A stretch of 64,000 nucleotides of DNA from Ianthella basta (lineage: Eukaryota; Porifera; Demospongiae; Verongiida; Ianthellidae). The position numbers and the translations under genes were made by a program. The DNA is taken from NCBI GenBank assembly GCA_964019415.1, contig OZ025879.1, forward strand, positions 2,601,794 to 2,665,793, in the 5' to 3' direction. Below, piece after piece: positions 3-60,623 of the stretch (its first letter is position 1; each line of letters begins with the position of its first letter). The notes below the pieces were generated by a model. It made no database searches, was not told the DNA's origin, and saw only the letters and a program-made list of their open reading frames with translations.

Positions 3-3000
3 TATGCCTTCTGTTTTCTTCCTTTGAAAGACCCAACAGGACTTCCAGTCAGCATCCATGGCTACTTCAGGGTGGCTAGCAATCGACGAAGCATTGAATG
101 GCCCAATGCAAGCAACACAGGTGAATCTGCTCTCTGGAACAAGCACTTGATGGAAGCTCTTGTGGTGCCATCATATGCCATTCTTCTGGCCAGCAAACAA
201 TATCTGCTCTCATGCAGTGGCACTCCAGCTCTTCCACCAGCTGAAGGTGTTCCAGATCCATATTCGTGGTTGCCACTGCCACAGGAGGTGAAGCACAGTG
301 AGATCTGGAAGCACCTCTTGGAGGCAGACCCTTCAGTTCAGTCACTCCTCACTGCCTCACCTGTATGGTGGACTGCAGCTGATGGTGGAAAGTGGGTTGT
401 ACCCCATGAAGCCAACTTGGTACCTAATACTGTACCGGAGGAAGTAACCAAACTTCTGATTACTCTGAATTGTCCAGTAGTTTGTCTTCCGCCGGCTGTC
501 AAGGAGTGCTTCTGTTATGGCCACACAGATCACCCTTTCCAGTATGTTGATCAGCACTATGTTCGTCTTCAATTAGAGGAGAAGGCTACAGTGGCAGCAC
601 AGCTGTTGAAGGATACAAGTGTACTTTGGAAGGTTTTGGATTATGTAACTTCAGATCTGTCATCTGACTGGGAATACCCTTACCTTAAAGGTCTCCCAAT
701 TGTTCCCTTAGCACAGCTTGGCAGTGAGCCCGTGTGCTTGCAGAGAAGACGAGGAGTGACATCTGAAGATCTGGTTTACATAATCACAGATGACCTCACT
801 CGCAGTATTCTTCCAGGTTTAGACAGCAGACTCCTGTCCCACACACTGCCGAAGCACATCCTTGAGGTATTCAACAGCCTTGCAGGCTTGGACCAGTTCT
901 GTGTGACAAAGGCAACCCCTCACGATGTGTGCCCCAGCCTTATTGAGGAATCAATGAGGACATGGAATGCTCAGCCCGGTCAGCCTATTCTTTGGTTCCC
1001 GAGACTTGCTCATAGTCACCCCACGATGCCTGAAGAGAAATGGCTCACCAATCTTTGGGAGTGGCTCAGGTCAACACTGGGAGTATCAATTGAAGACATA
1101 GAGCACCTCCCGATTGTACCAATGACAACCATGTCAGGAGGTGCACAAGAGCAAGTTCAGCTGTGTCCATTGAATGCACTTGAGAAAAGCTTGAGGCAGC
1201 CAATGGTTGCAGTGTCCCAGCAAGTAGAAGACATGATTGAGGAATTAGGCTGCAAGTTGGTTCCACATTCTCACATCTTCATTGGACATGAAGACACACT
1301 GAATGTCTACCTTCCCGTGGTATCTCCACTGTCATTGCTTCGAGTGCTGAAAGACATCCGTAATGTATCTCAGCTGGTTAAGAGCCTCAGCGCTGGAAGT
1401 AAAGATGTTTTACGTCACTACCTTCTCGAGAACATTGCAGACATGGAATCACGTGATGTTGCATCTTTTCGCTCCCTTCCAGTCTTTGAGACTCTTACTT
1501 CTGAGTACATCAGCTTACAGAATCTGCACTCAGTCATCTTCCCTCCCTACAACCTGAAACTGCCCAAACACCTTCCTTTCCCAGCCAATACTCTCCACAT
1601 CCCTTCCAAAGATTATGAAGAGTACACCATTCTGTTGGGAGAACCTGAAACACTGGACTCCTTCATTGCATCCTATGTTGGCCCGTTTGCACTGAACAAC
1701 TGTACGAATGTGGAGAGGGATAAGATCTTCCTATGGATCCTTCAGCAGCTAAGGGTGTCGCAAGATAAATCACTGTGTGACTACTTGAGGAAAACAGCAT
1801 TTTTACCCTCAAGCAGTGATGACAGCCTCTATTGCCCCACAACACTCTATGACCCAGAAGATGAATTTCTGAAGCAAATGTTCTTAGATTCTGAAGCAGC
1901 TTTTCCATCATTAGGGTTTCAGTCTTGCCTAGCTGAACTGAAAGAATTAGGCCTGCGAACAAGACAAGAGCTTCAGCGAAATGACGAAGCTTTTCAGTCT
2001 TTCATAATGAGCAGAGCCAATGCTGTGATCTGGTTTGACTCTGCTAAAGCTAGTCAATGCTCAAAACACATCCTGAAGGCTCTGTGTGATGCTGACAGAA
2101 ATCTCAGCACTCTTGTGTTTGACCAAGTACAAGACGTTCCATTCCTTTTCTGCCAGTCCACTCCTCCCAAAGACTACCCTCCAGAACTTGCTTGGGCTGG
2201 TACTGCTGTGGAAGTCCCACTACCTCCTTCTGGTCTCTGTGCGTCTCAGGACCAGAAACACTTGGGTCACCTAGTGGGATCTGTGTCTCCAGTACTGTCC
2301 CAGAGGTATAAGGAGGTGTACAATAAGCAGGTATTTCAACACCTTTTTCTTGATGTGTCTGTGGATATGGTATGCCAGCACCTTGTGAATGTGGTCAAAT
2401 TGGATAGTCAAGCCCACTCTGCCAATGCTGCATCTGTGACAGAGATGATGGAGTCTGTTTACCCTTTCCTTAATCAACGGGCAGGACACCATGTCAGCCA
2501 ATTGCCACCGCGGTGCATTTGGCACGGGTCTCAAAAGGCATTCCTCCCTCTGGAGAAAGTTGCATGGACTGGTATCCCAGGTTCTTCCCTTGTGCCATAC
2601 AGGTACACCATACAGGAGATTCCAGGAGCATATCGGTACCATCAGATGTGGAACGAGTTCAAAGTCCAAGAAACATTTGAAGCACATGTTGTCCAGCAGG
2701 TGCTGACTGAGCTTAAAGACCATTTGCTGGCTCGTAAGGGAACACTCTCAGACACAGAGGTATCAATGGTGATTCAGATTTTGAAGTTCCTCCAGAACAA
2801 AGGAACCGCAGGCCAGGTACTGATGCCAACTGTAAAAGGTACTCTTCTCTTGGCAGAGGAATGTACCTATGATGACCGAGAGCTCTCTAGCAAAAGACAG
2901 AAGCAGTTAGACAGCAAGGGCATTGTGTTCACACACAGTGATGTATCCAAGGATCTGGCCCAGCACTTCAGGGTCCCTCCTGTGACCAGCAAAATTGCAA

Positions 3001-6000
3001 AACCCACTGGTCTGAAGATAAAGTGTGAGAAGGCTGGTCAAAGCATTGAGCTAACTCGTCGGATTGGCAACATCATCAAGGACTATGAAGACAGTATAGA
3101 TGTTTTCAAGGAACTTGTTCAGAATGCTGATGATGCAGGTGCCACAGAAGTCAAATTTCTGATTGACTGGAGACAACACAACTTGGACCTGCTCTTCACA
3201 AAAGAGATGCGTCACTGGCAAGGCCCAGCACTGTATGGGTACAACAACAGTGTATTTTCATCAGCTGACTTTGAGAACATTCGTCAAGTTGAAGCAGGTA
3301 CAAAACTGACTGATCCAACCAAGATTGGACGATTTGGTTTAGGATTTTGCTCCGTGTATCAGCTAACAGATGTACCTAGTTTCATCAGTGCTAGCAAGCT
3401 TGTTGTCTTTGACCCTCACATGCATTTCCTCGGTACTAGTTTGACTGGTGGCTCCCCTGGAATTAGTATTGACTTTGTGGAAGAGCAGAGTGATATAGGG
3501 ACTTTCTATGCAGACCAGATGTCACCCTACCAAGATGTGTTTGGTTGCAATGTACTGGATACACCAGGAAAAGGCAAACATGTCAAACCAGTGAAAGGGG
3601 GATTCCAAGGAACACTGTTCAGATTTCCTTTTCGTAGTATGAGGACCCCACGGTCTGACATCTGCAGCAAAACATTTGACAGAGAAGAAATCAAACAGTG
3701 GAAGGAAGACTTTATAAGATCTGCACAGAATCTGTTGGTCTTCCTTCGTCATGTGAAGATGGTGGGACTATATGAGCTGGAGAGTGGTGGCAATCCCACA
3801 AAGGACATGAAAGAAGTGTGTGTCATCTCGTGCAAGCATGAAACAGAGTTGTTTACACCTCATGATTTGGTGGAAGAATATGAAAGGGATCCTAAAGGCA
3901 CTGGTGGAAGTCATTCTCTTGCATTGAAGAGTGTATCAGTAGATAAACTGAGTATGGCAAAGAAGGGCAAGCAAAAAACAGAAAGGCATAAACAAAAGTG
4001 GCTGGTGGCATCCGCTGTAGGGTGTGAAGAAAGCTTCAGATATGCAAGGTCTCCCTATGGCATTGATCACGGTCTTGTACCCCTGGCAGAGGTGGCTGTA
4101 AGAATGGATGGATCAAAAGCTCTAACTCCAGTGGAATGCGAGGGACAGCTGTTCTGCTTTCTCCCACTGCCAATTGCATCCGATGTGAAGTTTCTGGTTA
4201 ATGGTTTCTTTGATATTTCTACCAACAGGCGTAGTCTGAAAGATCTCCAGGACCGTAGCAAGAAGAACGTTTGGAATCGTCATCTTATCACTGACTGCCT
4301 GTCCAGGGCTGTCCTGTGGATGTTTAGAGGCCTTCAGCAATGTTGTCCAGGTGATTCACTATCACCAGCCTTCCTGGAGTCTTACTACAATCTATTGCCC
4401 TCTCATGATGCAACTGATGATGTTAGTAAAGAGCTAAAACCAGCTTTACTGAAAAGAATGCAGAATGACAACATCCATTTCTTCCATGTCACTACCAAGG
4501 ATGGGCAGTGTTGGAAGGCCCATCATGAAGCCCATGTTCTTAACCGAGATTTCCAGATGAAGCACTTTTCAGTAACACTACCTGACATGTTGCAAGTTAT
4601 GTTAGAAGTTGTGGAACTCAGTGTTGCCTCTAATGTGCCAGAGAATGTGCAAGATGTGTTGAGAGATTTGCTGGAGATAGTGTCACCCAGACAGTACTAC
4701 GAAGAGTTCTTCATTCCTAGATTGCCTGCTATCGAGAGCTGCTGTCGTGAAAAGCAGATCATATTTGTATTGAAGAATATGGCACTATTAAGTAAAGGGG
4801 ACAGATGGCTTGAGGAGCTGCTGAGAACATCACAGTGCATTCCAACTGCACCAAATGGCACCTTAGTACTTCCCACACGACTGATTAACCCAAGTGGGCC
4901 TTTATGCATGCTGTTTGATGAATGTGAGGAACGCTTTCCAATCTCTCAGCTTCGCAGAGATGAGATAATGAGTGCATTGAAAGTACTTGGAATGTGCCAT
5001 GATATCTTGAATGTTGAGGATGTTGTGGACAGGGCACAAAATGTAGTAAATCTGTCTGTCCTGGAAATGAAGAAAGCACAGAAAAGGAGTCAGAAACTGC
5101 TACTCTACATCTCTGAACACCATGTTGATGTGCCCTCCCTAAGCACAATCCCCTTTATTCCAGTGATGCAGAGACCAGAAGGTGTCAATGTGCCTTGGTT
5201 GGCTAGTGACACTTGTTTGCAGTTTTCTAGTGCTTCTGAAATGTTCAACACAGGATTCAAACTTGTGTTTACTAATGATCTGATTCTTGATCCCAGCCTG
5301 CAACATGTAATTTTCCCCAGCAAAGTGCTTCAATTTCATTTGAAGCCAACGTTAGAGCAAGTCGTTCAACACTTGAAGAACCTCAGTAAGTGGACAAGTG
5401 TCAGTGCGCTGAGTAAAGCAGATGAGACATTCTTGACTGACACTACACGAAAAGTGTACATGTACTTGGAGAAAGAGCTGAAGTTGGCAGATGACAACTC
5501 ACTTGAAAGAAAACTTTTCCAGGGTCTTGAAGTGGACAAGAATGCAGTGGTCTGGAATGAAAACACTGCAGTATTCTTGAAAACCAGTTTACTAGCTCTC
5601 CAGTCTTTAGAGAATGTGTCCCTGGCTCCATATCGTCTGTCTGCTAATGAGGTCCCAGCACTGATGAGAACACCAAGACTCTGGAAAGCACTGGGTATCC
5701 ATGACATGCACACCCATGATGACTGTATAGCTGTTCTGCATGAAATGCCAACACCACTGACCAAGAAAGATGTCAGCATTGCAACAAATATTCTTCGTTA
5801 CCTTTCAGGAGAAACAGAAGTGAGAAAACGTGTATTAATCCCCACAACCAAACAGACACTACTCCCACCATCCGAGTGTTACTACAATGATTTGCCTTGG
5901 AAACAGCAAGCACAAGGAAAGCACCTCCTGGACAAGTATGACTTTGTTGACCAAGGTGTAGCACAAAATGTGGCTCAGAAGTTTGGAGTGCAACCCATTT

Positions 6001-9000
6001 CCACTAAGATTGCCAATCCGACAAGGTTGAAGATCAAGTATGAGCAAAAGGGGCAGCAGCTTCCAGTGACTCGCCGCATCAACCGTCTTCTTGATGAGTA
6101 TAGCGAAATTGATGATGTCTTTAAAGAGCTCATTCAGAATGCTGATGATGCAGAAGCAGAAGTAATCAAGTTCCTCATTGACTGGAGGCAGCACAAGACA
6201 GATTATCTCCTTAAGCCAGAGATGGCTCCCTGGCAAGGTCCTGCACTTTATGTGTACAATAACAAGACATTCTCTGACCAGGACTTTGACAACATTTGTG
6301 AACTGGAAGGAGCCACAAAGAGGAGGAATCCTACCAAAATTGGCCGCTTTGGTGTGGGTTTCTGTGCAGTGTACCATCTGACTGATGTCCCCAGCTTTGT
6401 GAGTAGGTCACGGCTAGTGATGTTGGACCCACAGACAAAGTTTCTCACTGATGCTACATCAGCCAATTCTCCTGGTATTCGTTTTGACTTTGTGGAAGAA
6501 CAGGAGGAACTAACAAGTTTCTATGTTGACCAGATGGCTCCCTATGAGGGTATATTTGGTTGCAAAGTTCTTGATGTACAGGAAGGATTTGATGGCACAC
6601 TGTTTAGATTTCCTTTTCGCACTAAACCCAGTGAAATATCTAAAAGAGTGTTCCAGAGAGTTCAGATCGGTGAAATGAAAAAGGTGTTGATGAGTCAAGC
6701 AGATAGGTTGCTAGTGTTCTTGCAACACTTGAGAAAAGTGGAGATGTATGAACTGCGTGAAGGACAGGACCACACTAACCCGTCTTTGCTAGTCTCTCTG
6801 GAGAGGGATAGTTCAAGATCTGTCAATTTACTGGAGCAATTCAAGAGTGCTGTGGAGCATGGTAGCAGAATGACACATTACAACACCACACAACAGTTCA
6901 CTTTGACAAGGACAGAGGTGGTGCCTGGAGCATCTCCAAAGTCAAAGAAGAAGAAGGGCAGACCTGTTGCCTCACTTCAGTCCAGTAGCACAAGATGGCT
7001 GGTGGCATCAGCAATGGGAGAAGCTGGCTCAAGTTCATGGGAACATGCCTGTTCTGCAGAGGGTAGAGAGAGAGGGGATGTCCCACTGGCTGAGGTTGCA
7101 GTGCCAGTTGTAGCTGAAGATTGTGTTCTTCCTCCAAAGCTACTTCAAGCAGGCCAAGTATTCTGTTTCCTTCCTTTGCCCATCACCATAAGTGACCAAA
7201 AATGCTTGATCAATGGTTACTTTGAGATTTCCAAAAATCGCCGTGACCTGGACAAATTGCAAGATGAGAACATGCAGGATGCATGGAACCGTTTGCTCAT
7301 CAGAAATGTCTTGGTGAAAGCTTACATTGCTCTGTTGAAGCACCTTACTGAAATGCTTCCTAGTGACAAGTACCAACGTACCCAGTTCCTTGAATGGTAT
7401 TACAAGCTCTGGCCTCTTGACACTGCTAGCCACCCTCTTAGCAAGGAACTACAGGTAGCCTTCAAGAAAGCTCTTTGTGAATCAGGCATACCTTTAGTGT
7501 GGAGCTTGGCTGATGGAGGGAAATGGCTACCAGTCTGCAAAGTGACTTGTCTGGATGACTCCTTCCACACGTCACTGTTTGATACTGTTCGTAAGGATAT
7601 ATTGGACATCCTGGTACAGCATGGATACAATATGGCTGAGCTACCATACACTATCAGAGCATCCCTCTGTTCAGGGCCTGACTCATGCCTTGCAAGTGTC
7701 TCCTTCAAACATTACTGTGAAGAGGTTTTGCTGAAGAACCTGTCACATTTGCCACATGATAAGAGAGACACCCAGCTACTGTTCATTTTGAAGCACTTGG
7801 GAGCCCTAAATGTTGCTGGAGAAGAGGATTGGCTGAAGAAATTGCTTAAAAGGACTGCATGCATTCCTTGTGAACCTAACGGTACTCTTCTTTGTCCTAC
7901 AAAACTTGTGTTTCCAGAAGGACTGCTGTATGAGCTGTATGATGTGGATGAAGAACGATTTCCATCCAAAGCATTCTCTGAAGTGAAGCACTCTCTTGTA
8001 GAACTGGGAATGGTTGTTCATAAGCTGGAAGAAGAAGATGTAGTCAATCGTGCCAAACTGATACATACACTGTCAGTAGATAAGGCAAGGCAGCGATGTG
8101 AGAGCTTCATTCAATATCTTACAACTGTTCACTTTGTCAGTGAGTTGAAGTATTATTCTTGGTACATGGAGAACCCACTGATTGAAGCACTTTCAGACAT
8201 TGCCTTCCTGCCAGTTCAACAGAGACCCAGTGGATCAACCATTCCTTGGTATGGTGACTGCACACTGTTTGCAAGTCCAAGGGAGGTATATGCTCAAGGT
8301 GAAAGTGACCTGATCTTCAGTTGCAAGTTGACAGCTGACCTAACAAGTGGCCATGATGTGGAGAAGCTATTCTCTCTCAATGCACCTAAGTCTGATGAAG
8401 TGCTGAGTCATCTCACACAAATTGTGAATTGGGCTGAAGCTGATGAAACAGAGATGACATCACAAGACCATATCCTCCTTGATCGGTGCATGCCTGCTGT
8501 TTATGAGTGGCTTGGTAACAGTCTGGGATGTACAAAACAGACAGATGTTCCCAGAGCAGGTGCTAGGTCACAAGGGTCATACCTAACAGGAATGCGAAGC
8601 ACCAATGTGTATGCAGCAGACAGTGCCACAAAAGTGGACACTGCAAGTAAAGAATTGTTCTGGAAAGAGGAAGTAGTGCAAGATTTGAAGAACAGGCCAT
8701 TTATTTGGCAAGAAAGTAATGCATGTAAGAGGTTCCACACTCCTGCTCAGACTGTGAGCGACAGGCATCTCAAACTAAGCTACTATCCTTACTTGGTCAA
8801 GTTGAGCCCAGAGAATGAACACTATCAACAATTTTTCAAAGTCTTTGGTGTAGAAACTACACTTACCAGACTGAAGATTGCAGATGTGTTGAAGACCATT
8901 TCACAATATGAGACTAAGATCAGTTCAACTTCAGAGTTGATGGAGCTCATTGTTCATATAGCTCAGCGACACTTTCACTACCAACATGATAGCAATCTGG

Positions 9001-12000
9001 CTTTCTACCTACCAGATGCAAATGGAGTGATGATGGATGCAAGGACGATGGCATATCCTGAAAGCATTGCAGAATCGGGATTTTTCCCAGAAGAGCTGGC
9101 TCATGGTTGGACCCATTTTGTTACTGATCGCATATCAAAAGCAGATGCCAAAAGGTTGGGTGTGCAGGACATTCTTGCCAACATCATGCAGCAGTTTGAA
9201 GACAATGAATATTTCAGGGAAGAAGACTTTGGCCAAAAGGAGGAGATATGTACTCGCCTGAACAACATTCTCAAACAGTACCCTGCTGATGTATCTATCT
9301 TCAAGGAGTTCATTCAGAATGCTGAGGATGCCATGGCAACAGAAATAGCATTTGTGATTGATCATAGATGCAGCTATGGAGATAAGTCACTGTTTGCTAA
9401 TCAACGAAGTTGGAAGTCTTTGCAAACAATGCCCGCACTTCTTGTCTTCAATAATCGCAAGTTTCAAGAAGCTGACATTCAAAACATCAAGAAGCTGGGA
9501 ACTGGTGGGAAGGCAGATGCCTCTGACAAGATTGGTCGCTTTGGTATAGGTTTCAATGTTGCTTATCATGTCACAGACTGTCCCACTTTGGTATCCTTTG
9601 GAGAAGGTGGGTTAGCCGAGAACTTCTGTGTCTTTGATCCTCAATTCAAGTATGTTCCCAGTCGCTTTGATAGAAAACTACCTGGAGCAAGATACAGGAT
9701 GAAGAATATGGAAGGTAAGAACTCAAGTGAGCACTTTCCTGACCAGTTTGCTCCCTTCCTGAGGGATGTGATGCCAGAGATGGCTGAATCTGCTCCAGGA
9801 AGCTTTGCAGACCTTGAGGCCAAGTGGCCACATGGCTACAGTGTCTTCCGTCTACCTCTAACCAGAGCTGCTAAACATTACATGGAAGTGAAGTCAGGTT
9901 TTGCTAAAGATGCTAAATCGCAAGAGTTGCTGGGTTATCACATGACTCTTCCTCACCTTAACAGACTTGCTAAAGAATTGACTGAACAGGCTCCAGGTAT
10001 GCTGCTTTTCCTCAACCATTTAAAGAGGATATCAGTTTTTGAAGTGTCTGGTGAAGGGAACGTTGTGAGTCCATGGACAGTTGAGGTGATACACAGTTCA
10101 GGCAACCAGACAGAGTGCAGCCAATTTGCCAATGAAGTGAACAGGGTGTGTGCAAATTTGCAGTGTGATCTTGGCTCCCAGGAGACTTGTCCAGCGTGTT
10201 TTCATACAACATACCTCATACAATTGAAGTCCACAGGGAGAACTCCAGAAAGATCTGTTTATCCAAAGGATCCCTGTACAGGCAGACAAGCAGACAAGAA
10301 ACTGGATATTGGAAGTTTCAAGATCTTGCCTTCGAGCATGCAAACAGCTGCTTCAATGTCAGTGAGCCATACTGCAGTATCCACCATTAGCAGACAGGAA
10401 AGTAGAAGTCCCTTGAATCTGGTTGGAGAACACAAGAAGGAGCAAAGGGATTACAGTTCAAAGGAAGAGTCAGTAATGCAGGAGTCAAATTCAACATCAA
10501 GTTGGGTCATTAGCAAACGTTTTGGTCTGTCTGACATCCCTGAAGAACTGCTGGACTTTGGAGCTAAAGAGCGTCTCTTTCCTCTGGCTGGAGTGGCAAT
10601 TCAAGTGCCAAATAGTGCTGAGACTTATGGTGCTTCTACCTATTTCACTGGCAACCTGTACAGTCATTTACCTCTACCTCTGAGTACAGGTATCCCTGCT
10701 CACATTAATGGCCATTTCTGGGTGGACCCCTCTCGCAAGCACTTAGAAGGTTCTCCTGGTATGGAAAGGAAAGGTATCAGTCAGTGGAATGAAGCAATAA
10801 TGCAAAAGGTGGTAACTAGGGCCTATGTGGATGCTGTAACACACTGCAAGGTTCATGTCAAGAACAGTGAAGGTTTCAGTGACTGGTTCAACAGGCTTCT
10901 CCTTGCACAACCTACACCATCTTCTGTACTAGATGATTTCCATTTCAGCAAATGCGTATATGAACTAATGATTGAAGAAGAATGTGAAATCCTTATTGCT
11001 GATGCACCAGCCATAGAAGAAAATACAACAGAGGTGAAATGGTTAGCCCTCACAGCAAATGCAGGTAATCCCAGGAAAGGTTGGTTCTTCACTGGAGACC
11101 CTGAAGTGAGAAAGGTGCTCCTCTCTATAGGTGTTAAGTTAGTTTCTACACCTCTGAGAGTGAACATACGGGTGTCATTCTTGCTTTCGAAGTCCGTGCA
11201 AGGCTACTCCGGAGAGTTTACTGTAGATTTGGCCAGGGAGTACTTAAGGAAAATTGCCACTTGCTACAAGGATCACGAGGATGCAATAGTCTCGGCTCTG
11301 GTACCTCTGCTGACCTATGTTCTTAGTGGAATTGACTCTCCAGAGCAGTGTAGTGCTGTCAATGGCCTACCCCTGATGCTCACTAAGAACAATAAGTTGA
11401 GACTGATTGACACCAGAGCTCCATTATTTTCTTCAAAATTCATTGACCTTCTTCCAGAGCACTGCATGCAAAGGTTTGTGTCACATCAACTTAGCGAGTC
11501 AAAGCTAATGGGCAAACTGATGAAGCTTAAGTTGGTGACACCGCTCAGTCCGCAGTATCTTGCAGAGAATATTAACCTACCCAATCAGCGATTGGCCAAC
11601 TTAAATGAGTGCAATATGAAGCTTCTGCGCAGACTGTGGCACTATATTGCTCTTTCTATTTCATCCACTCCTAATATTCTGGCCTACTTTGATCGTGTCT
11701 CCATTATTCCCACAAGCCGATCTACAGTGGTCTCAGTGAGTAACTGTAAGACAGTGCTGAGAGAACATGGTTCAGTGACATTACTGAGGAAGCTTCAACT
11801 CCCAGTACTGGACTTCTCACAGGTATGTAACCAAGCCAATGTCACTGCTTGTGTGAAAGAAAGGCTGGCAGTTGAAAGCAGAGTAGATGAGGTGCTGAAG
11901 GTTGTTGAAAACCATCTAGCTGAAGAACCTACCTTGGCTACTCTTTATGATGTGAATCAAATTGAAGTTGATGAGTTTGTTGGATTTTTGCTCAAGTGTC

Positions 12001-17001: not shown

Positions 17002-18107
17002 CCTTAGAATATTATGCATTCACATAGCAGTACATGCATATTTTCAAGTAGGCACCTAATATAGTATTTACTGTATATGCATGTACTCAAACTAACGAGC
17101 ATAGTCAAACTGCAACCATAGGCCTCAATGTATATTTTGTGGAGAAACTGTAATATTGTTGTAGTTATTAAATTGGTACTAGCGAAATAAATAACCAAGC
17201 ACGGCTGCCTGGAGTCTTTTGGGAGCCCCTCGAAACGCAGTAAATTTTTATGGTGTCCTTCACGGTGCATGGGGGCCTGGGCAAACTTTAACCCCCCCCC
17301 CCCCCCTCCCCCTCAGAGTCTCTTGGCAGGCCTTAGGCAGCAGTATGGTACATTATTTTATTTAGGACCTACCTCATACTGCAAGTAAGTTTGTTCCAGC
17401 TAGACACATGACTTCAGTCTGCAACTAATAGCACAGCACAAATCAGACTACTGCTGAGTTGTCATAATTATTGGACACACTTCTACACAGTTCTAGATAC
17501 AGTGCTAGCAATATAATATGACTACAGAACAAACAAGCCGAGGAAGACTTGACTGCACAGAAATACCATTACACTTACGTACACTACACATGCACATCAC
17601 TTGCATCAAGTTGTATTGCTACAATGAACAGCAAATGTAAAGCTGTGACAAACTAGTTCCATATTTGCATAAACCATGCATGCAGTGTTTGGATGCATAT
17701 AATTATACATGTTCTGGTCAGTGATGTATTAGGGTCTTTGTTGCTGTTAACGTTAACCTCTGGGACCTCACTGGCAAGGTAAGATCTCTTGTTAGATGTA
17801 TACTTGGTGCATGTGCCGTGCAACTGGTCATGCATGCATGCACAGTACATGACAGTAGTACACTGGAGCATACATCACACACATGGGTGTACTTATTTAT
17901 GATGATACCCTTTCCTGTTTCCTTCGATTTCCATTCATCCGTTTCCGCTTCGCCGGAGGGAAGTGCAATAGAAGTCAAGGCCTCGCCCTTCTCTGTGTCT
18001 CTATTCAAGACTGTATACGACTGCTACTTTACCTCACAACCTTAGCAGGTGTACCTGCACAACTAAACTGACCGGGGTAGCCATTGCTCCCCGCGGCGTC
18101 TACAGCC
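17002..18107. other. Intergenic region between the two sacsin-PARP genes
   Basis: This is the 1.1-kb gap between the PARP exon of gene A and the first ATG of gene B. It holds an AATAAA signal near its start and a C-run of 15 (17292-17306) continuing as T and more C. The last 200 bases are GC-richer and presumably carry the promoter and 5' leader of gene B. I see no supported coding region; short ORFs here have no family resemblance. Confidence 0.6.
17186..17191 (+). terminator. Putative polyadenylation signal of sacsin-PARP gene A
   Basis: A canonical AATAAA lies 185 bases after the PARP-exon stop codon, on the correct strand and before the next gene. The position fits a short 3' UTR. The cleavage site cannot be placed from sequence alone. 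Confidence 0.5.
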
Positions 18108-30100: not shown

Positions 30101-33100
30101 ATCTGACTGATGTCCCCAGCTTTGTGAGCAGGTCACGACTAGTAATACTGGACCCAATGACAAAGTTTCTCACTGATGCTACATCAGCCAGTTCTCCTGG
30201 TATTCGTTTTGACTTTGTGGCTGAAAACAAGGAACTAACAAGCTTCTATGTTGACCAGTTGGCTCCCTATGAGGGTATCTTTGGTTGCAAGCTACTTGAT
30301 GCAATGAAAGGGTTTGATGGTACACTGTTTAGGTTTCCTTTGCGATCTGAAGCCAGTATCATATCAGAAAGAGTGTTCAAGAGAGAACAAATCTGTCAAC
30401 TGAAAGAAGTGTTGATGAGTCAAGCAGACACACTACTGGTTTTCTTGCAACACTTGAGAAAGATTGAGTTTTATGAACTTAGCGAAGAACAGGACCACAC
30501 TAATCCATCTTTGCTAGTCTCCCTGGAAAGGGATAGTTCCAGATCTGTCAATTTACTGGAGCAATTCAAGAGTGCTGTGGAGCATGGTAGCAGAATGACA
30601 CATTACAACACCACACAACAGTTCACTTTGACAAGGAGAGAGGTGGTTCCTGGAGCATCTCCAAAGTCAAAGAAGAAGGGCAGACCTGTTGCCTCACTTC
30701 AGCCCAGTAGCACAAGATGGCTTGTGGCATCAGCAGTGGGAGAACCTGGCTCAAGTTCTTGGAAGTGGGCTTGCTCTGCGGAGGGTAGGAAGAGAGGAGA
30801 TGTCCCAGTGGCTGAGGTTGCAGTACCAATTGTAGAGGGAGATGGTTTCCTTTTTCCAATGCCTCTTAAAATAGGCCAAGCATTTTGTTTCCTTCCTTTG
30901 CCCATCACCATAAGTGACCAAAAATGCTTGATCAATGGTTACTTTGAGATTTCTAAGAATCGTCGTGACCTTGCTAAGTTGCAAGATGAGCATATGAAGG
31001 ATGCATGGAACCGTTTGCTCATCAGGGATGTGTTGGTGAAGGCTTACATTGCTCTGTTGAGGCACTTTACTGACATGATTCCTAGTGACAAGTACCAACG
31101 TACCCAGTTTCTTGAATGGTATTATAAGCTCTGGCCTCTTGACACTGCTAGCCACCCTCTTAGCAAGGAACTAAAGGTTGCCTTCAAGAAAGCCCTCAGT
31201 AAATCAGACACACCTCTAGTGTGGAGCATGGCTGAAGGCGGGAAGTGGTTACCAGTCAGCGAAGTTAAGTGCCTTGATGACTCCTTCCAAAAGGCCCTGT
31301 TTGACCCAGTTCGGATCAATATTTTGGACACTTTGGTACAGCACAGATACAATATGGCTGAGCTACCATACACGATCAGAGCATCCCTGTGTTTGGGGTA
31401 TGACTCATCCATTGCAAGTGTCTCCTTCAAGCATTACTGTGAAGAGGTCTTGCTGAAAAACCTGTCACATTTGCCACATGATAAGAGAGACTCCCAGCTA
31501 CTGTTCATTTTGAAGCACTTGGGAGCCCTAAGCGATGCTGAAGAAGAGGATTGGTTGGTGGAGCTGCTTACATCCACTGCATGCATTCCCTGTGAACCAA
31601 ACGGTGCTCTTCTTTGCCCCACAAAGCTTGTGTTTCCAGAGGGACTGCTATGTGAACTGTATGAGGTGGATGAAGAACGATTTCCATCCAAGGAATATTG
31701 CAAAGTGAAGCACTCACTTGTGGAACTGGGAATGGCCGCTCATAAATTGAAAAATGATGATGTACTTGAGCGAGCTAATGTGATACATACACTGTCAGCA
31801 GATAAGGCAAGACAGCGATGTGAGAGCTTCATTCAATATCTTACAACTGTTCACTTTATCAGCGAGGTAAAGGATGCACCATGGAATTGGTCAGAACACT
31901 TGAAGAATCCAACAATTGAAGCACTTTCAGACATTGCGTTTCTGCCAGTTCAGCAGAGACCCAGTGGATCAACCATTCCTTGGTATGGTGACTCAGCACT
32001 GTTTGCAAGTCCAAAGGTAATGTACTCTCAGCAAGGAAGTGACATGCTTTTCAGTTGCAAATTCACAGCTGACCTACCTGCTGGCCATGATATCAAGAAG
32101 CTATACTTCTTCAAGTCACCTGCATGTGAGGATATTCTAAGCCATGTCATGGAGATTGTCAAATGGGCTGAGGATGTTGAGACAGAGATGATGCCACAAG
32201 ACCTTGCCATCCTTGACAGGTGCATGCCTGTTGTGTATGGGAGACTCGATAACAGCTTGCAGTTCACAGAGGGAGAAGATTTTCCCAAAGTAGGTCCTAG
32301 GTCTCAAGGAACATTGTTGTACCAAGCAGGTACAGCAAGCACCACAACAACTGAAGTAGATTTGCCTTGGAAAGAGATGGTAGTAAAGGAATTAAAGTAT
32401 AGGTCATTTATTTGGCAAGGAAGTAATATAGGCAAGAGGTTCCACAGTCCTGCTCAGACTGTGAGTGACAGTCGTCTCAAGCAAAGCTACTATCCTTACT
32501 TGGTCAAGTTGAGCCCAGAGAATGAACAGTATCAGCAGCTCTTCGAAGCCCTTGGTGTAGAAACTATGCTTTCTAGTGACACAATAGCAGATGTTTTAAA
32601 TAGCATTAGAAGAGATTGGGCAGAAGTTAAAATTGATGACCCAGAATTGATGGACTTCATTATTCACATAGCCCAGCAGCAGTTCCACTCTCATCATGAT
32701 GACAACCTGGTTTTCTACCTACCAGATGATGAAGGGGTGATGAGGAATGCCAGGGAGATGGCGTATCCTGAAAGCGTTACAGAATCAGACATTTTCCTTG
32801 AAGACCTCACTCATGTTTTGGCTCACTTCGTTAGTGACCGCATACCAAAAGCAGCTGCTAAATGTATGGGTGTGCAGGACATTCTCACCAACATCATGTG
32901 TCATTTTGAAGACAATGAATATTTCAAGGAAGAAGACTTTGGCCAAAAGGAGGAGATATGTACTCGCCTGAACAACATTCTCAAACAGTACCCTGCTGAT
33001 GTATCTATCTTCAAGGAGTTCATTCAGAATGCTGAGGATGCCATGGCAACAGAGATAGCATTTGTGATTGATCACAGGCACAATTATGGAGCAAACTCAA

Positions 33101-36100
33101 TGTTTGCTCATGATGACAAATGGAAGTCTTTGCAAACAATGCCTGCACTATTGGTTTTCAACAATCGCAAGTTTCAAGAAGCAGACATTCAAAGTATTAA
33201 AGAATTAGGAATTGGTGGGAAGGCAGATGCCTCAGACAAGATTGGTCGCTTTGGTGTGGGCTTCAATGTTGCTTATCATGTCACAGACTGCCCCATTTTG
33301 GTGTCATTTGGTGAGGGTGGGTTGGCTGAGAACTTCTGTGTCTTTGATCCTCAATTCAAATATGTTCCCAATCGCCAGGGTACCCCTAGACAGCTACCAG
33401 GAGCAAGATACAGGATGAAGAATGTGGATGGTAAGAACTCAAGTGAGCATTTTCCTGACCAATTTGCTCCTTTCTTGATGGATGTGATACCTCAGATGGC
33501 CAAATCTGCTCCAGGAAGCTTTGCAGACTGTGAGGCCAACTGGCCACATGGCTGCAGTGTCTTCCGTCTACCTCTCACCAGAGCCAGTAGACATCACATA
33601 GATGAGACCTCCACTAAAACGGAATTCAATAGATCACAAGGGTTGCTAGGATGTGCAATGACTCTCCCTCACCTTAGTGGGCTTGTAAGGGATTTGACTG
33701 AACAGGCTCCAGGTATGCTGCTCTTCCTAAACCACTTGAAGCAGATTTCAGTATTTGAAGTGTCAGATAAAGGCAAAGTTCTCAGTCCATGGACAGTTGA
33801 GGTAAGACACAGTTCAGACAACCTGATAAAGTGCAGTCAATTTACCTCTGATATTAAAGGAGCATGCGCTAGTTTAGAAGGTGATGACTTCCAGGAGCAG
33901 CCTTGTCCAGACAGCTTTCAAGTAACTTACAGCATACAGTTAATGACCACAACAACAACTCCAGAAACACCTGAATGTACTTCAGTAGATGGCTCTATTG
34001 CCAATCAGGCAGACAAAGAAATGGTTGTTCAAATTCCACAGACTTTGCCTTCAAGCATTCACACAGCTGCTTCAATGTCTGTAAGCAGCACTGCAGTATC
34101 CACTACCAGTGCACAGGCAAGTATTATAGATTTGAAACAAGTTGAAGATCAAGATAGAGAGTTATGTAATGACAGCCCTAGGGAAGTGGTATTAACAAAA
34201 CACACTGATTCAACATGGGTCATCAGCAAGCGGTTTGGTTTGTCTGACATCCCTGAAGAACTGCTTTACAGAGGAAGTAAGGAGCAACTCTTTCCTTTGG
34301 CTGGAGTAGCAATCCTGCTACCAGATAGTAGTGGGACTTATGATGGCTCTACCTTCACTGGTACACTGTACAGTCATTTACCTCTTCCTCTGAATACAGG
34401 AATCCCTGCTCACATTAATGGCCGTTTCTGGGTGGACCCCTCTCGCAAGCACCTGGAAGGCTTTTTGGGCACAGGAAGAAAGAGAAATCTTTTGGATAAG
34501 TGGAATGAAGCTATCCTTCAACAGGTGGTACCGAGGGCTTATGTCAATGCTGTAACATACTGCAAAATGTATGTCCAGAACAGTAAAGCTTTCTATGAAT
34601 GGTTCTACAACCGTCTCCTTGCACAACCTACACTGTCTTCTGTACTAGATGATTTCCATTTCAGCAAATGCGTATACGAACTAATGATTGAAGAAGAATG
34701 TGAAATTCTTATTGCTGATGCACCAGCCACAGAAGATACCACAGAGGTGAAATGGCTAGCCCTTACAGCAAATGCAGATAATCCCAGAAAAGGTTGGTTC
34801 TTTGCTGGAGACCCTGAAATTGGAGACCCTGAAGTGAGAAACGTGCTCCTCTCCATTGGTGTGAAGCTAGTTTCTACATCAGTTGTAACTTCAAACTCTA
34901 TGTTGCAAACATACTCTGGAGACGTTACAGTGGATATGGCCAGGAAGTACCTGATAATGGTTGCCCCTTACCTCAAGGACCACAAGGATGTTATAGTATC
35001 AGCTCTGGTACCTCTGTTGACCTATGTTCTTAGTGGAATTGACTCTCCAGAGCAGTGTAGTGCTGTCAATGGCCTGCCTCTAATGCTGACTAAAAATGAT
35101 CAGTTGAGACTAATTGACACCAGCACTCCATTGTTTTCATTGGAATTTATAGACCTTCTTCCAGAACACTGCATGGAAAAGTTTGTGTCACATCTGCTTA
35201 GTGAGTCAGAACTAATGGACAAACTACTCAAGCTTAAACTGGTAACACAAATCAGTCCAGGGTATTTAGCTGAGAAAATTGAATTACCCAATAAGCCACT
35301 GGCCAACTTTCATGAGTGCAACATGGAGCTACTGCGAAGACTATGGTGCTATATTGCTGATTCCATCTCTTCCACCCCTAATATTTTGGCCTACTTTCAT
35401 CATGTCTCCATTATTCCCACAAGCCGATCTACAGTGGTCTCAGTGAGTAACTGTAAGACAGTGCTGAGAGAACATGGTTCAGTGACATTGCTGAGCAAGC
35501 TTCAACTCCCAGTGCTGGACTTCTCACAAGTCTATGACAAAGCCGATGTCACACTAACTGCTGTTGTTAAAGAATTATTGGCAGTTGAGAGCAAAGCAGA
35601 TGAAATGCTGGAAGTTGTTGTAAACCATCTAAGTCAAGAGCCAAGATTAGCTACCATTGTTGGAGTGAAGCGTATTGAAGTGGATGGGTTTATTGGGTTT
35701 TTGTTAAAGTGTGATTACCTACACGAGTATGTAGGCACACTGAAGAAGCTGAATATTTTCAATGTAATATGTGATGGGTGGGAGTCCCTGGAACGAAAGA
35801 GTGTGGTGTATGCTTTGCCTGAAAACCAAACACCAGAAGTGGGCCTGAAAACTATATCCAGCAATTCCAAAATGCAGATCATCAAGATCAACCACCTACA
35901 TCACCAGTTTTATGAGACAGTTGGTGTGCAGGTGCTTGATAGACCTGGCTTCTATGCCAAAGTTATCATTCCTCATTTTGCACTCTTACCTGCAGAAGCT
36001 CAAATCATCCATCTTCAGCACATGATTCAACAAAATGATTTGATTGCTCTTCTGCAACAACTGTGTGATGTTCGTTTCATCAAAGATAATAGAAGGGCAG

Positions 36101-39100
36101 GTCCACAACTAGCTTCAGAGTACTTTGACCCTGTTGAAGAGCTGTTAAAAGAATTTCTGACATCTGAGAAGTTTCCACCTGAAGTTTGGTGTGAGGAAGA
36201 CAATCTGAAGCTCTTGAGACAGTTAGGCTTAAGGTCATCTGTCTCTGAAGACTTGTGGAGGAAGTTTGCTCGAAGAATTAAGGACTCTGGAAAGAAGGCA
36301 GATAGCAGGGCACAAATGTTGTTAACATCACTGCAGAGTCATATTCAAGATGCTTGTTCTTCAGACTCTTCAACCGTTACAGTACAAAAGCAGCCACAGC
36401 AAGACCCACAGCAGCTGCTGCAATTCTTGCACAGTATTGCTGACATTGACTTCATTCCCTACAGAATTCCTTTTGATGTTGAACATGCTTTTCGTCAGCT
36501 GGCAATTGATGTTCCTGTACCAGAAAAGAAGTTCATTTGCTTTAGAAATTCAGTGTTCTGTGAAGTGGATGAGGCACAGTTGGTGTGCTTTAGCAAACAT
36601 CCACATGTTGACTGTCATGTTTTGTTCAGTTTCAGTCACCAATCCAAAGGACAGGCTATTGTGAAGCAGGTGTTGTCTGCCCTAGGACTGCAGCTACCAT
36701 CTGTGGCATTGGTATGTGATAACCTGAAGCAGCTAGTTGCCCGTTTAGTACAGTGCATTGTATCTTCTAACCAAGACAGTCAAGAAGGTGTTCAAAGACT
36801 GCAGAAGCTCTTCATGTGCCACTACAACTATCTTGCAAAGTATCACAATGAGCAGTCACTAGCAGAAATATCTGATCATCTTAAAAGTGAGAATTGTTTG
36901 TTCATCCCATTGGATAAGTCATTCAAGATAGAGAGGGGAACAAACCTTGTGGCAGCCAGGTCACACCACACCAGACCATATACAATGTATTTGCATTGCA
37001 TCCCACGATACCTTGCATCATCTCACTACTCAGACTTTCTAAGTGCTGTTGGAGTTTTAGGGAGCCTGTCAGCTAGCCACTATGTTCACACTCTGAAGAG
37101 GCTAGCTAGTATGAGTAGAGAACCTAACTTATTGAGAGCAATAAGAGCCCTGTACGAAGACCTTGTAGCTCTGCTAGAGGGTGCAGAAGACTCAGATAAG
37201 GCTCTAAATGCTTGTGAAAAACCAATTCTACTGCCAGCATGCAATGCAGAACTGCTTCCTGCTGACCAACTTGTTCTAAATGATGCAGAATGGATAAAGG
37301 AAAGATTGGAGCAGTGTTCTGACTATGATTTCATAATGCCTCCACCCAGTAAGAGTAGTGGACAGGTATCTCTACCTCCCTGTCTTGGAGTACAACCACT
37401 GAGTGAGTTGATCTTTGAAGAACTGGACAAGGCTGCAGTACTGGACAGGGACAACCGTTGTGAAGCAGAGCTCAAGGCCGAAGTTGCTCTGGAGGGAGAA
37501 TCAGTTGAAGGATGCCCTTATTCAGGACAGTTTGTGTACCTTATTCAATCAAAAGAGTTTGCACTTGGTCTTCGAAGAATGATAAGTCACCAACTGGGAG
37601 GGAAGCCTCTTTCCAGAGAGCATGAGCAAGCTATTGAGGCTGTTCAGAACTTCGATGTCAAGTGTGTCTATGCAATCAGAACTCATTTGAGGCATCGAAA
37701 CACTGGTTATGTACCTGGCAGTGATAACGACGATGTTCCTTGCTTTCTCGATGGCAAGAAATGCCTCTATGTGAGATTTCATCCCAAGATTGAATTTGAC
37801 AGCAGTAGACGACTTTTGCACATGGTAGTAAAGTGTATATATAGAGTCCTTGGTGGATGCCTTGATGCCATGCACTTGCGTGAAGTCCTGGAATCCTGTA
37901 ATCCTGCTGCTGTGGAGCGGGTCTTGGACCAGAATGAAGTAAGGGCATACAAGATACAAGAGGAGGCTGATGGACAGATGACACAGTATGAAGAAGGTCA
38001 AGGTGCAGAAATTATAAATGACCTTGAGCTAATGTTGACCTGCAACTTCAGAGAGGGAGACATGGTCAAGTACTGCAGTGAGAATAGCAGAATAGTAATT
38101 GCAACAGTCCTCAAAGTGACAGAGGAGAGCTCAGACAATGAAGATTTCCCCTTCCCTCCAACTCTCCATCTGAAGCTATCACCTGGAAGTGATGGAGAGT
38201 CAGAACAGAAGGCCATGAGCTCCTTACTTGTCTGCAAGTTTCTATCACCAGAGCAGATTGCACACCTTGAATCTCTTAGCGGAGCACTGGGCAACTTGGA
38301 GCAGCAACAGAATATACTTGGGCTCTCACAGGAGATGAATGTTCTTCTGGAATTGCCTTGCAGTAGCAAGGAAGACCTGCTAAAATACCTTTCTAGCATC
38401 AGTAATGCCCTGGGGCAGTATAAGAGTCCACAGGTGTTCTTTGCCATTGAAAGGATGTTGTTTCAGCTGCATTTTTATTGTGTGCACAGAAACAGGCGGC
38501 CAGAAAAATTTAGTGAGTTAGCAGAATCACTGAAATCAGTCTTTGCAGCCCATTGCTCTGACAATTTCATGCAATCCCTTGAAAGAAAAACTGTCAGCTT
38601 AGTGCAACCACTGCCAACTGTACAGCCTGATGAAAGGGTTTACCAAAGACAAGAGTCATACAGAGAACTCAGTGAATGGAGGACCCCGACTGTTCAGTCC
38701 ACTCCAACTGACACAGGAAGCTGTGGGTCTACTTACCTTGGACAGTACATTCCTCCAATACCACCTCATGCTCCCACCCTGTCTTCTGGACAGAGGAGCA
38801 TGCAAAGCGGAACATATTACCCTGTAGCACCTGCTCCTGGGACACTCAGAGGTGGTGGGGCATACATTTGGGGAGGTGGCACAGGGCATGGTGTCCAGCA
38901 GTCTATCTGGCCAGAGGTAACAGAAGAAGTAATCCCTGTTCCAGCTCCAACAGTGAGTCTTGAGGATGCCTTCATTTGGCTAAAGGATGCATGCCGCACT
39001 GTGCAGCTTGTCAAAGAAATGGAGGATGTTACGGAAGTCATAGACATGCCCAGCCTGGAAGGAGCAGTACAAGCCAGTGTCTACAAGTATCCTGAGACTC

Positions 39101-40629
39101 TCTGCTTCTATGCTCATGAGATTGTGCTCAAGTGCTTGAAGGCTGTGTTTTTTGCTTACTGTGGTTTGCCCAACCAGTTGGTGGAGTGCAGCAATCTGGT
39201 ACAGCTGCACCAGACACTGATGGGGAAGCTTGCAGGAAACCGTGAAGTTCAGAGTGTTTTAGGAGAAACTGCACGTAGCTATGTCCACCTAGTGAGTGGA
39301 CATGGGGACTGTTGTCGGTTCCCCTCATATGACCCCCCAGCCCTGCCCTGTGACACTCACTCCCCGGCTGTGGCTAGAGAAGTGTTGAGATCAGCCATGT
39401 GCTTTGTGGAGGAGATACAGAAACTGGCCCAGATTCGTGCGTTCTTCCCTGAAGGTCTGGAGTCCTTCACTGTTGTTCGACCAGACAGCTGGACAGAGCA
39501 GGAAGGAGGTTAGCAAGTGTTTCATTGAAGCATTCACAGTTTAAACATGCAGTGAAAGGAATGAGCTTATGTTGTTTGCCTTCAACTAGCATCTGACACT
39601 ATGAAGTGTATACTTGTAGATCACGTCTGTACATTCTTCAAAACTTCTGAAATTAAGACATATTTGCCTGATCAACAACTCTATTTCTGTTGCATTTATT
39701 GTGTAGTGGTACAAACTGTAAGGGCCACTCAGACAATACAAGGTGTAAATGGCAATGTAGCAACTAATAATTATACAATTTGTGTTGTGCCAATCATGGC
39801 CTGTGCACAAGGTTGCATCGATCTTCCTTTCCACTAATCATAATCGTCAGTAGAAGCTGATCATAGACTACATGTTTGGCAAAGTGGTTGTTGTGATCAT
39901 CAATCAACTTCAGCAGCTCCAAAACTTATCTTATTGCATGAAAGGTGTAGTGATGCGATATGTCCTTATCTCTAAACTTGATATGTAGAGTTTCCTTCCC
40001 ACTGGGAAAGACACGGGGAAGAAGAGGAGTTGAAGGTTGTTCCTGTCAACCCTCACAGTCGAGAGTTCAAGGAGATAGCAGCCCTCTTCGCTAGGACCAT
40101 GCCAACTGATAGGTATACCATTCAGAGGCTAGAGCGAGTACAGAACAGGGTTCTGTGGATGAGGTACCGTGACTGCAAGGAACGATTTAAGAGGGATCTG
40201 CCCTCTGCAGGGGAGAAGCACTTGTTCCATGGAACACGACAGAACGACCCTGAAGTCATTTATAGTGGTGATGTCGGATTTGATGTTGGCCACAGCAAAG
40301 TTGGGTGGTGGGGAACAGGAATCTACTTTGCAGTCAATGCATCTTACTCTGACCGTTATGCACATGCAAAAAATGTTCTTGGACACCGCACACCACTTTG
40401 CAAGATGCTGGTTGCCAAGGTTCTCACTGGGTTGCCCTTTGTTTCACTTCCAAACAGGGAACTGAGATTCCCACCTGAGCGAGCTGACACAGGTGCTGGG
40501 GAGGGAAGAGTGAGACGTCACTACAACAGTGTGCAAGGGACGAGTAGTGGATCAGAAGTGTATACCACTTATAACAATGAACAGGCTTACCCTGCTTACA
40601 TCATTTCTTATAATATTATATCCAGGTAA
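18108..40629 (+). CDS. Sacsin-like giant protein B: four sacsin repeats, HEPN and PARP domains
   Basis: Predicted exons are 18108-18123, 18215-18306, 18399-18657, 22898-39508 and 39989-40629, all in phase, giving about 5,872 residues. The start is the ATG reading MSDDE; exon 2 could instead begin at 18191, adding eight residues in the same frame. HSP90-like ATPase boxes (ELIQNADDA-type then GRFGxGF) mark four sacsin repeats at residues of about 37, 1434, 2438 and 3493. A J-domain-like segment without HPD lies near nt 38380-38560, a HEPN-like domain near residues 5475-5655, and a PARP catalytic domain at about 5660-5872. Human sacsin has three repeats, an N-terminal ubiquitin-like domain and no PARP; no ubiquitin-like domain is seen here. 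The giant exon is 16.6 kb. The gene is a tandem duplicate of gene A. The sacsin assignment is secure; the function of the fusion is inferred only. Confidence 0.87.
18703..19517. mobile_element. Non-autonomous DNA transposon with CCGTATTTGTCCG termini
   Basis: The left end reads CCGTATTTGTCCG and then TATAGAGGCCGGG. The right end is its inverse, ending CGGACAAATACGG. Both ends are flanked by TA (18701-18702 and 19518-19519), which suggests a TA target-site duplication of the Tc1/mariner kind. Sub-terminal tandem repeats of a GAATAGAGGCCGGG-like unit lie inside both ends: about six at the left, and on the right the inverted and direct forms. No transposase is seen, so it is a MITE-like derivative. 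The superfamily is inferred from TA only. Confidence 0.75.
21832..21921. repeat. Inverted repeat with 40-bp arms (hairpin)
   Basis: The left arm (about 21832-21872) and right arm (about 21882-21921) are reverse complements with two or three mismatches around a 9-base loop. Weaker symmetry extends outwards, with CAGTG-like sequence on both sides. It could be the core of a foldback element. In the pre-mRNA of gene B it would form a long stem. Confidence 0.8.
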
Positions 40630-51103: not shown

Positions 51104-58478
<7,375 letters not shown>

Positions 58479-60496: not shown

Positions 60497-60623
60497 TCTT
60501 AACTCGAACTAGTACTTGACACGTCCTGACGAGAAAAGATACGATTCTTCGGCTATGCCCCGGCTATAAAAAATGAATGACGTTACGCAACGTTTCATTG
60601 CGTCACTTTTAGGGCGGGGCGCG
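60497..60623. promoter_or_regulatory. Bidirectional promoter with TATA-like box and bZIP-type sites
   Basis: This 127-base gap separates the bHLH-PAS start codon from the chosen start of the small plus-strand gene. It holds TATAAAAAA (60565-60573), TGACGTTA (60578-60585) overlapping TTACGCAA (60583-60590), and TTGCGTCA (60598-60605). The last three resemble CRE/ATF, C/EBP and PAR-bZIP sites. The TATA-like box points to plus-strand transcription starting near 60595-60600. That would leave the ATG at 60573 outside the mRNA. Confidence 0.55.

Follow-up and report, generated by a model that had tools for sequence, protein, structure and literature searches.

Introduction

The closest described relatives of the genes considered here are the sacsins (human SACS and the animal sacsins), in which repeated Hsp90-like SACS domains with ATP-site motifs are combined with a C-terminal HEPN domain, and for which, to our knowledge, the targets of the Hsp90-like repeats and of the HEPN domain have stayed unclear. 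According to the main text of PMC3710099, mutations of sacsin occur in a human ataxia, and a sponge, Amphimedon queenslandica, has sacsin-like proteins with DEATH domains; its multiple sacsin-like HEPN proteins with a signalling module are interpreted there in terms of host-pathogen conflict or apoptosis, and the word "PARP" has no occurrence in that main text. Also relevant are the TRADD-N immune proteins, which may have C-terminal PARP or sacsin domains (PMC8195603); PARP14-like ART, HEPN and sacsin are listed among the TRADD-N partners in lineage-specific expansions, and in the available text of that paper no sacsin-HEPN-PARP chain is mentioned. Finally, there are bacterial sacsin-like ATPases (109 loci found, 80 kept), which have a SACS-type domain, with about 40% identity over the domain in the best of them.

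The genes described below have the sacsin arrangement of SACS repeats and C-terminal HEPN but, in contrast to sacsin, a PARP exon follows the HEPN. As in Amphimedon (so far as PMC3710099 describes it), sacsin-like HEPN proteins are multiplied, each with an extra module, but here that module is a C-terminal enzyme domain; the parts list of PARP14-like ART, HEPN and sacsin is shared with the TRADD-N proteins, where, however, these domains appear as partners of TRADD-N. The combination of sacsin repeats, HEPN and PARP was not met in the literature surveyed.

Two adjacent genes and a family of sixteen

The window is a stretch of 64,000 nucleotides from the sponge Ianthella basta (contig OZ025879.1, positions 2,601,794 to 2,665,793, forward strand). 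Four open frames lie where the first-pass annotation had placed them (3-15836, 16279-17001, 22831-39513 and 39982-40629), the giant frames comprising 5,277 aa in gene II6 (open at the window edge) and 5,560 aa in gene II7. II6 spans 3-17001 and begins upstream, its 5' end being outside the window; II7 spans 18108-40629, with five predicted GT-AG exons encoding 5,872 aa. The features are as follows.

3..15831, + strand: II6 giant exon, sacsin repeats to HEPN (5' end outside window); open frame, SACS PF25794; donor GAG/GTTAGC after 15831
3048..3806, + strand: II6 SACS repeat (SACS match)
6063..6776, + strand: II6 SACS repeat (SACS match)
9237..10049, + strand: II6 SACS repeat (SACS match)
15273..15830, + strand: II6 HEPN tail (HEPN-like match)
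15832..16369, + strand: II6 last intron, phase 1, 538 bp (predicted); GT-AG
16370..17001, + strand: II6 PARP exon (terminal), triad H-Y-V; PF00644 E 2.2e-15
18108..18123, + strand: II7 exon 1 (predicted), start ATG 18108
18215..18306, + strand: II7 exon 2 (predicted)
18399..18657, + strand: II7 exon 3, N half of SACS repeat 1
22898..39508, + strand: II7 exon 4, 16.6 kb; remainder of SACS repeat 1, repeats 2 to 4, long linker, HEPN
26776..27528, + strand: II7 SACS repeat 2
29788..30501, + strand: II7 SACS repeat 3
32947..33774, + strand: II7 SACS repeat 4
38950..39507, + strand: II7 HEPN tail, sacsin type; PF05168, fold match to 3o10
39509..39988, + strand: II7 last intron, phase 1, 480 bp (predicted)
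39989..40629, + strand: II7 PARP exon (terminal), triad H-Y-V; PF00644 E 3e-18, PARP15 E 4e-16

The open frames, the Pfam matches and the HEPN fold match bear out the original description of two adjacent giants carrying sacsin repeats, HEPN and PARP. The earlier gene model does need correction in that II7 also has three small 5' exons (18108-18657), and "two genes", although both are present, are merely two of 16 in the genome. All 72 SACS matches found genome-wide (71 of them over the cut-off) fall in 16 genes on one contig, as grouped by hand: arrays of eight (I) and seven (II) genes, plus one (III). Every one of these has, on the same strand and in the same domain order, a HEPN-like tail and a PARP exon, and with 16 of 16 sacsin genes carrying that exon a chance neighbourhood of sacsin and PARP was rejected. 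In II3, II4 and II5 the sacsin frame is broken over more than one open frame, so that not every copy need be functional.

Sacsin repeats and accompanying domains

SACS (PF25794) is matched in both giant frames with E-values down to 3e-132, and there are four SACS repeats in each window gene; human sacsin, by contrast, is described in PMC3710099 as having three Hsp90-like modules. With exons 1-4 of II7 joined, the SACS match becomes complete (2-244 of 247, E 2.7e-73). The motifs E[LF]IQNA[DE]DA and GRFG[ILV]GF, which are Hsp90-type ATP-site motifs, are found in all four II7 repeats, and binding of ATP by these repeats is accordingly a prediction from conserved motifs.

Human sacsin has a DnaJ domain before the HEPN, whereas a search at E up to 1 found no DnaJ match in either giant exon (II6 or II7); DnaJ is not known to be required in every sacsin. 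Nor would an N-terminal ubiquitin-like domain fit in, if the predicted II7 start is right. The 150 matches listed include no Death domain inside a sacsin gene (150 of 437 candidates scored, so that this is a lower bound); a Death-domain match near gene III (C12, 3310025) was set aside, being on the opposite strand.

The HEPN tail

In the window copies taken alone the HEPN family PF05168 is matched weakly, below the Pfam cut-off (E 0.034 and 0.073), improving to 0.0041 on a trimmed piece; across the family it is matched by all 16 members at E up to 1, the best value being 5.4e-10. When a structure model of the window HEPN is compared with the PDB, human sacsin HEPN (3o10) comes first, with three of its chains (probability 1.00, E 5e-3 to 9e-3); the model is of low confidence (pLDDT 57) and gives no PDB match at E 0.001 or below. 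Together these point to a HEPN tail of the sacsin type. The HEPN RNase motif Rx4-6H is missing in both window copies, and an RNase reading was rejected for these two; among the 16 tails, R-x5-H occurs at the RYP site in four (I2, I4, I6 and I7), with a further Rx4-6H match elsewhere in I2 and I4-I7, and one in II1.

The junction between HEPN and PARP

It had been claimed from the window alone that the PARP exon of both copies has a matching acceptor, joining in the same phase to a donor at the same place in the HEPN exon, and this stands: the junctions 15831/16370 and 39508/39989 are both GT-AG and phase 1. Between II6 and II7 identity runs 0.883 in the exon, 0.458 in the intron and 0.881 in the following exon, changing at the predicted splice sites. 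A possible phase-1 GT donor and a YAG acceptor occur at the homologous place in all 16 genes. Moreover, the HEPN frame stops ahead of the PARP exon in every copy and the intron lengths cover all three values modulo 3, so that the HEPN and PARP frames cannot join unspliced. It should be borne in mind that donors were chosen by homology and phase and scored with a hand-typed, approximate matrix; the chosen donor is the best-scoring GT among those scored in 12 of 16 (in I8 a tie), the exceptions being I3, I4, I5 and II3, while scores are poor in I5, II3 and III and pyrimidine tracts are short at several acceptors.

A rather different interpretation treats the PARP exon as a small gene of its own behind each sacsin gene, co-duplicated with it and having its own promoter and start. 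The PARP open frame does contain a complete catalytic domain, an in-frame ATG precedes the acceptor in six copies (I1, I2, I3, I4, I6 and I7), and in II6 a possible AATAAA/ATTAAA lies at 15865, shortly past the HEPN stop. The first-pass statement that no in-frame start precedes the PARP core therefore holds for both window copies but is not general. However, the other ten copies, the window pair included, have no such ATG; in the window exons Met first occurs at residue 37, which already lies within the matched domain; conservation between II6 and II7 begins at the acceptor, where YAG and phase 1 are maintained in 16 of 16; and the II7 intron has no AATAAA/ATTAAA, one being present instead within 400 bp past the PARP stop. 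A separate gene thus appears very improbable. Comparison of the junctions strongly supports the HEPN and PARP exons forming one fusion gene, and a one-protein sacsin-HEPN-PARP architecture can be predicted with high confidence.

Splicing might nevertheless be used as a switch, with a short sacsin-HEPN form (intron retained) and a long form in which the enzyme is turned on. In II4-II7 the HEPN frame stops 5 bp or less from the donor, so that a retained intron would yield a clean sacsin-HEPN end, and the possible polyadenylation signal at 15865 in II6 could terminate such a form, but its lack of a counterpart in the II7 intron speaks against this, and alternative 3' ends are considered unlikely.

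Probable enzyme type of the PARP exon

The terminal exon matches PF00644 above the cut-off in both window copies. The nearest solved relatives of the family PARP are PARP15 (1.8e-37), PARP12 and PARP14, which rank ahead of the tankyrases (PARP10 comes behind tankyrase-2), and the window exon and the PARP15 construct 6ry4 begin at the same point (LPEHW). In contrast to PARP14, PARP15 and PARP12, the window genes have no macro or WWE match, and the carrier is a sacsin. A predicted structure of the PARP (pLDDT 30) was discarded.

A Glu at the third place of the catalytic triad marks the poly-ADP-ribosylating PARPs. Since a Glu sits one residue before the triad position in both window copies, the triad is easily misread by eye as H-Y-E, but alignment to PARP15 puts Val there, and the poly-ADP-ribosylating reading was rejected; a non-Glu third residue is shared with the PARP14/PARP15/PARP12 group. 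Over the 16 PARPs, H is present in 16, Y in 15 (II4 has Ser) and I or V at the third place in 16. The exon is probably of the PARP14-like, mono-ADP-ribosyltransferase type.

Whether such a domain is catalytic is a further question, as it could instead be a sensor of ADP-ribose or NAD+, or a scaffold, leaving the protein a chaperone only. The loss of the triad Tyr in II4 would fit this, and the window HEPN without its RNase motif is a precedent, within the same protein, for a domain lacking its usual catalysis. Set against it are the retention of H and Y in the other 15 copies with I/V in all 16, the fact that PARP15, a named mono-ADP-ribosyltransferase, itself has Leu at the third place, and selection: dN/dS is 0.10-0.49 over 22 within-group pairs, by which measure the PARP exons are under purifying selection (no value among the 22 indicates an arms race). 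A non-catalytic PARP is therefore quite unlikely, and mono-ADP-ribosyltransferase activity is probable in most copies.

A possible mode of action

The suggestion that a chaperone-sensor is here coupled to ADP-ribosylation fits the ATP-site motifs of all four II7 repeats and the H-Y-I/V triad of 15 of 16 PARPs. The spliced exons would give a single protein of about 5,900 aa, whose SACS repeats may go through an ATP-driven cycle of binding and letting go of protein assemblies that are non-native or foreign. Its HEPN domain might dimerise the giant, HEPN dimerisation having been described for human sacsin, while the C-terminal PARP, lying beside the bound client, would add single ADP-ribose units to it or to its surroundings; the mark could then lead to removal of the client or signal stress or infection. 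On balance we favour, on these sequence grounds, an ATP-driven chaperone scaffold bringing a mono-ADP-ribosyltransferase to damaged or foreign proteins, within an expansion of immune or stress type. It is the tandem expansion that suggests an immune- or stress-effector role, and for client-directed ADP-ribosylation in stress or immunity the balance falls a little on the side of doubt.

A natural sacsin with a built-in enzyme would label its own clients, in that the proteins it holds should bear ADP-ribose. Such a protein would connect a proteostasis giant with the PARP14-type antiviral system, and the family would add an expanded set of candidate immune effectors, probably of animal lineage.

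Relationships and origin of the PARP exons

PARP exon identity falls to about 31% between groups. PARP distances rise with HEPN distances (Mantel r 0.949, with 0 of 5000 permutations as high), a figure helped by near copies within groups. In a tree (rooted at the midpoint for drawing only; PARP15 and gene III sit on long branches) the 16 family PARPs lie on one side of a 97/97 branch and seven C5 PARPs on the other, so that "one group" holds relative to those seven sequences only, other PARP matches in the genome being outside the tree; those of C6, C9 and C12 (4.47 Mb) were left out as too diverged or partial. Of the C5 paralogues, the single one whose whole length was read has the order Macro-WWE-PARP and is PARP14-like.

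The idea that the fusion came from a prokaryote or a virus was rejected, since none of the 80 bacterial SACS loci (997 kb) has a PARP or HEPN relative by family profiles at E up to 0.01, in which respect they differ from the present genes, and among the 30 pattern matches that the PARP alignment gave in a viral scan there was no relative. Tentatively, and with more reserve than conviction, sacsin may here be an ATP-clocked mono-ADP-ribosyltransferase, in which three to seven Hsp90-like modules would read the folding or assembly state of a client and ADP-ribose on the client would record it, the enzyme having perhaps been acquired a single time from a PARP14-like gene, with later tandem expansion into an immune repertoire inside the cell. 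If sacsin does act as such an enzyme, ADP-ribosylation would be a sacsin output that vertebrates lost or never had.

As a separate observation on the same genome, a silicatein query gave 35 matches, none of them shown to be a silicatein: the active-site motif was seen in three of 11 loci scanned, in each case in the cathepsin form CGSCWAFS.

Sixteen predicted sacsin-HEPN-PARP genes on one contig

The two giant genes of the window (C12:2601794-2665793), II6 and II7, belong to a set of sixteen genes on contig C12 (assembly of 209 Mb, 96 contigs), in every one of which repeats of the Hsp90-like sacsin domain (SACS, PF25794) are accompanied by a HEPN-like tail (18 HEPN-tail matches in all) and by a downstream, same-strand match to the PARP catalytic domain, of which the whole genome has 65. 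A genome-wide search with the SACS profile, in which all 73 first-look candidates were scored, gave 72 matches (71 over the cut-off), all on C12; sorted by position and strand, with grouping by hand, they make up the following genes.

I1-I8: C12 1.16-1.37 Mb, eight genes, three SACS repeats each
II1-II7: C12 2.46-2.64 Mb, seven genes, three repeats in II1-II3 and four in II4-II7
III: C12 3.27-3.30 Mb (3267973-3298856), one gene, eight SACS matches, about seven repeats

The open frame of gene III, a single-copy relative, runs to 8,367 aa, compared with about 4,600 aa for human sacsin. None of the 16 genes from the SACS search is without a PARP, although a copy too diverged for the profile might escape such a search. 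Perhaps not all 16 are working genes, because the sacsin frames of II3, II4 and II5 are split (that of II4 in two pieces) and the II4 catalytic triad is altered; the sequence of II2-II5 and III was examined near the junction only. Two of the 18 HEPN-tail matches are short fragments, with 81 and 90% identity, at C12:2595413-2595606 between II5 and II6; they lie on the strand opposite to their neighbours and are probably a decayed copy.

The four open frames claimed in the first-pass annotation are present in the window, and Pfam matched sacsin domains in both giant frames and the PARP catalytic domain in both small ones. Its HEPN label is weak when either window copy is taken singly: these score E 0.03-0.07 against PF05168 (0.004 for a trimmed piece), below the Pfam cut-off, while all 16 members match at E up to 1, the best at 5.4e-10. 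In Foldseek, three chains of the human sacsin HEPN structure 3o10 come top for the window HEPN model (E 5e-3 to 9e-3, probability 1.00), the model itself being of low confidence (pLDDT 57).

Gene structure and the predicted HEPN/PARP junction

Gene II7 is predicted to be complete within the window, as five exons with GT-AG boundaries set by hand, which when joined form a single open frame of 5,872 aa.

Predicted, hand-placed exons of II7 (window positions)
18108-18123: exon 1
18215-18306: exon 2
18399-18657: exon 3
22898-39508: exon 4
39989-40629: exon 5 (PARP)

Support for the 5' exons comes from the first SACS domain, which becomes complete only when they are joined (2-244 of 247 positions, E 2.7e-73). 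All four SACS repeats keep E[LF]IQNA[DE]DA and GRFG[ILV]GF. As far as visible, II6 has the same layout, its 5' exons lying upstream of the window. The third II7 intron contains short degenerate repeats (RPGSNRGRARIEAG-like in translation) at window 18690-18870 and 19430-19500, perhaps an interspersed repeat.

In every one of the sixteen genes a phase-1 GT lies close to where the HEPN frame ends, and a phase-1 YAG lies immediately 5' of the [FLI]P..W with which the PARP exon begins, giving predicted introns of 208-2,294 bp. Donors were picked by homology and phase, and the one picked is the top-scoring GT among those scored in 12 genes (one tie), the exceptions being I3, I4, I5 and II3. The predicted acceptor is the stronger evidence for the junction, since alignment, not score, fixes its position. 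Identity between II6 and II7 falls from 0.883 in the HEPN exon to 0.458 within the intron, rises to 0.881 across the PARP exon and is 0.518 3' of it. The PARP exon opens at the start residue of the PARP15 construct 6ry4 ([FL]PSHW vs LPEHW). Counting against the predicted junction, an in-frame ATG lies 5' of the acceptor in six of the 16 copies.

Enzyme type, selection and probable origin of the PARP exon

In PDB profile and single-sequence searches, PARP15, PARP12 and PARP14 rank above the tankyrases and PARP10. The first triad residue is His in all 16 copies, the second Tyr in all except II4 (Ser), and the third always Ile or Val, where PARP15 has Leu; a third residue other than Glu accompanies mono-ADP-ribosylation. 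Across 22 within-group pairs, PARP has a dN/dS of 0.10-0.49 and the 300-codon tail that includes HEPN one of 0.17-0.37, values at which both look to be kept by selection. With its Tyr to Ser change and sacsin frame split in two, II4 (C12:2547582-2550818) is a candidate for a natural catalytically dead copy.

PARP and HEPN distances among the 16 genes correlate at 0.949 (matched by none of 5,000 permutations), a figure raised by near copies within groups; between five groups, identity is 31-46% for PARP and 25-56% for HEPN. The correlation fits a shared history of the two parts that predates the split into groups I, II and III. A 24-row tree, unrooted and with two long branches, separates the 16 sacsin PARPs from seven PARPs of contig C5 with support of 97/97. 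A single C5 gene was read from end to end, and it is Macro-WWE-PARP, so the exon probably derives from a PARP14-like gene. This PARP14-like frame runs uninterrupted at C5:5757867-5761163 and surrounds one of the four PARP matches that lie at C5 5.70-5.78 Mb.

Relation to described proteins and possible role

In full-text searches of a largely open-access literature collection, none of the papers listed describes a fusion of sacsin with PARP; public annotation may already contain such predicted proteins, unremarked. The nearest cases in that collection are Amphimedon sacsin-like proteins with Death domains (PMC3710099) and TRADD-N joined to sacsin or to PARP, each separately (PMC8195603).

The domain parts, which alone are observed, suggest a chain in which the Hsp90-like repeats, driven by ATP, would hold a client, two chains would pair through HEPN, and the C-terminal PARP would modify the held client. 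Within-group dS is 0.08-0.48 across the tandem growth to 16 copies, and tandem expansion of such a kind is common in immune or stress effectors. Elsewhere, a sacsin is among the oyster genes raised by viral RNA (as cited in PMC8195618), a sacsin-like gene lies within the highest-FST adult region of an oyster herpesvirus-survival scan (PMC9437489), and sacsin is among diversified coral genes reported as responding to stress or immune challenge (PMC6208414); the examined parts of these three papers make no mention of a PARP fusion.

Other loci

On the minus strand of the window, 51104-52015 and 53676-54530 match Erv1/Alr (2.8e-15) and, weakly, QSOX pseudo-Erv (0.014, under the cut-off), together perhaps one quiescin sulfhydryl oxidase gene, and 58607-60508 holds a frame for a bHLH-PAS transcription factor. 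Two bacterial frames of 2,841 and 3,277 aa (loci L074 and L079, from one Verrucomicrobiaceae MAG) reach 407 and 391 bits with the SACS profile, close to double the 221 bits of the runner-up, and perhaps hold more than one SACS domain each. Among the matches listed, Death domains form dense arrays at C3 4.64-4.75 Mb, where single frames of some 1,000 aa or longer often hold them, and at C6 9.05-9.39 Mb; these are candidates for further large immune families.
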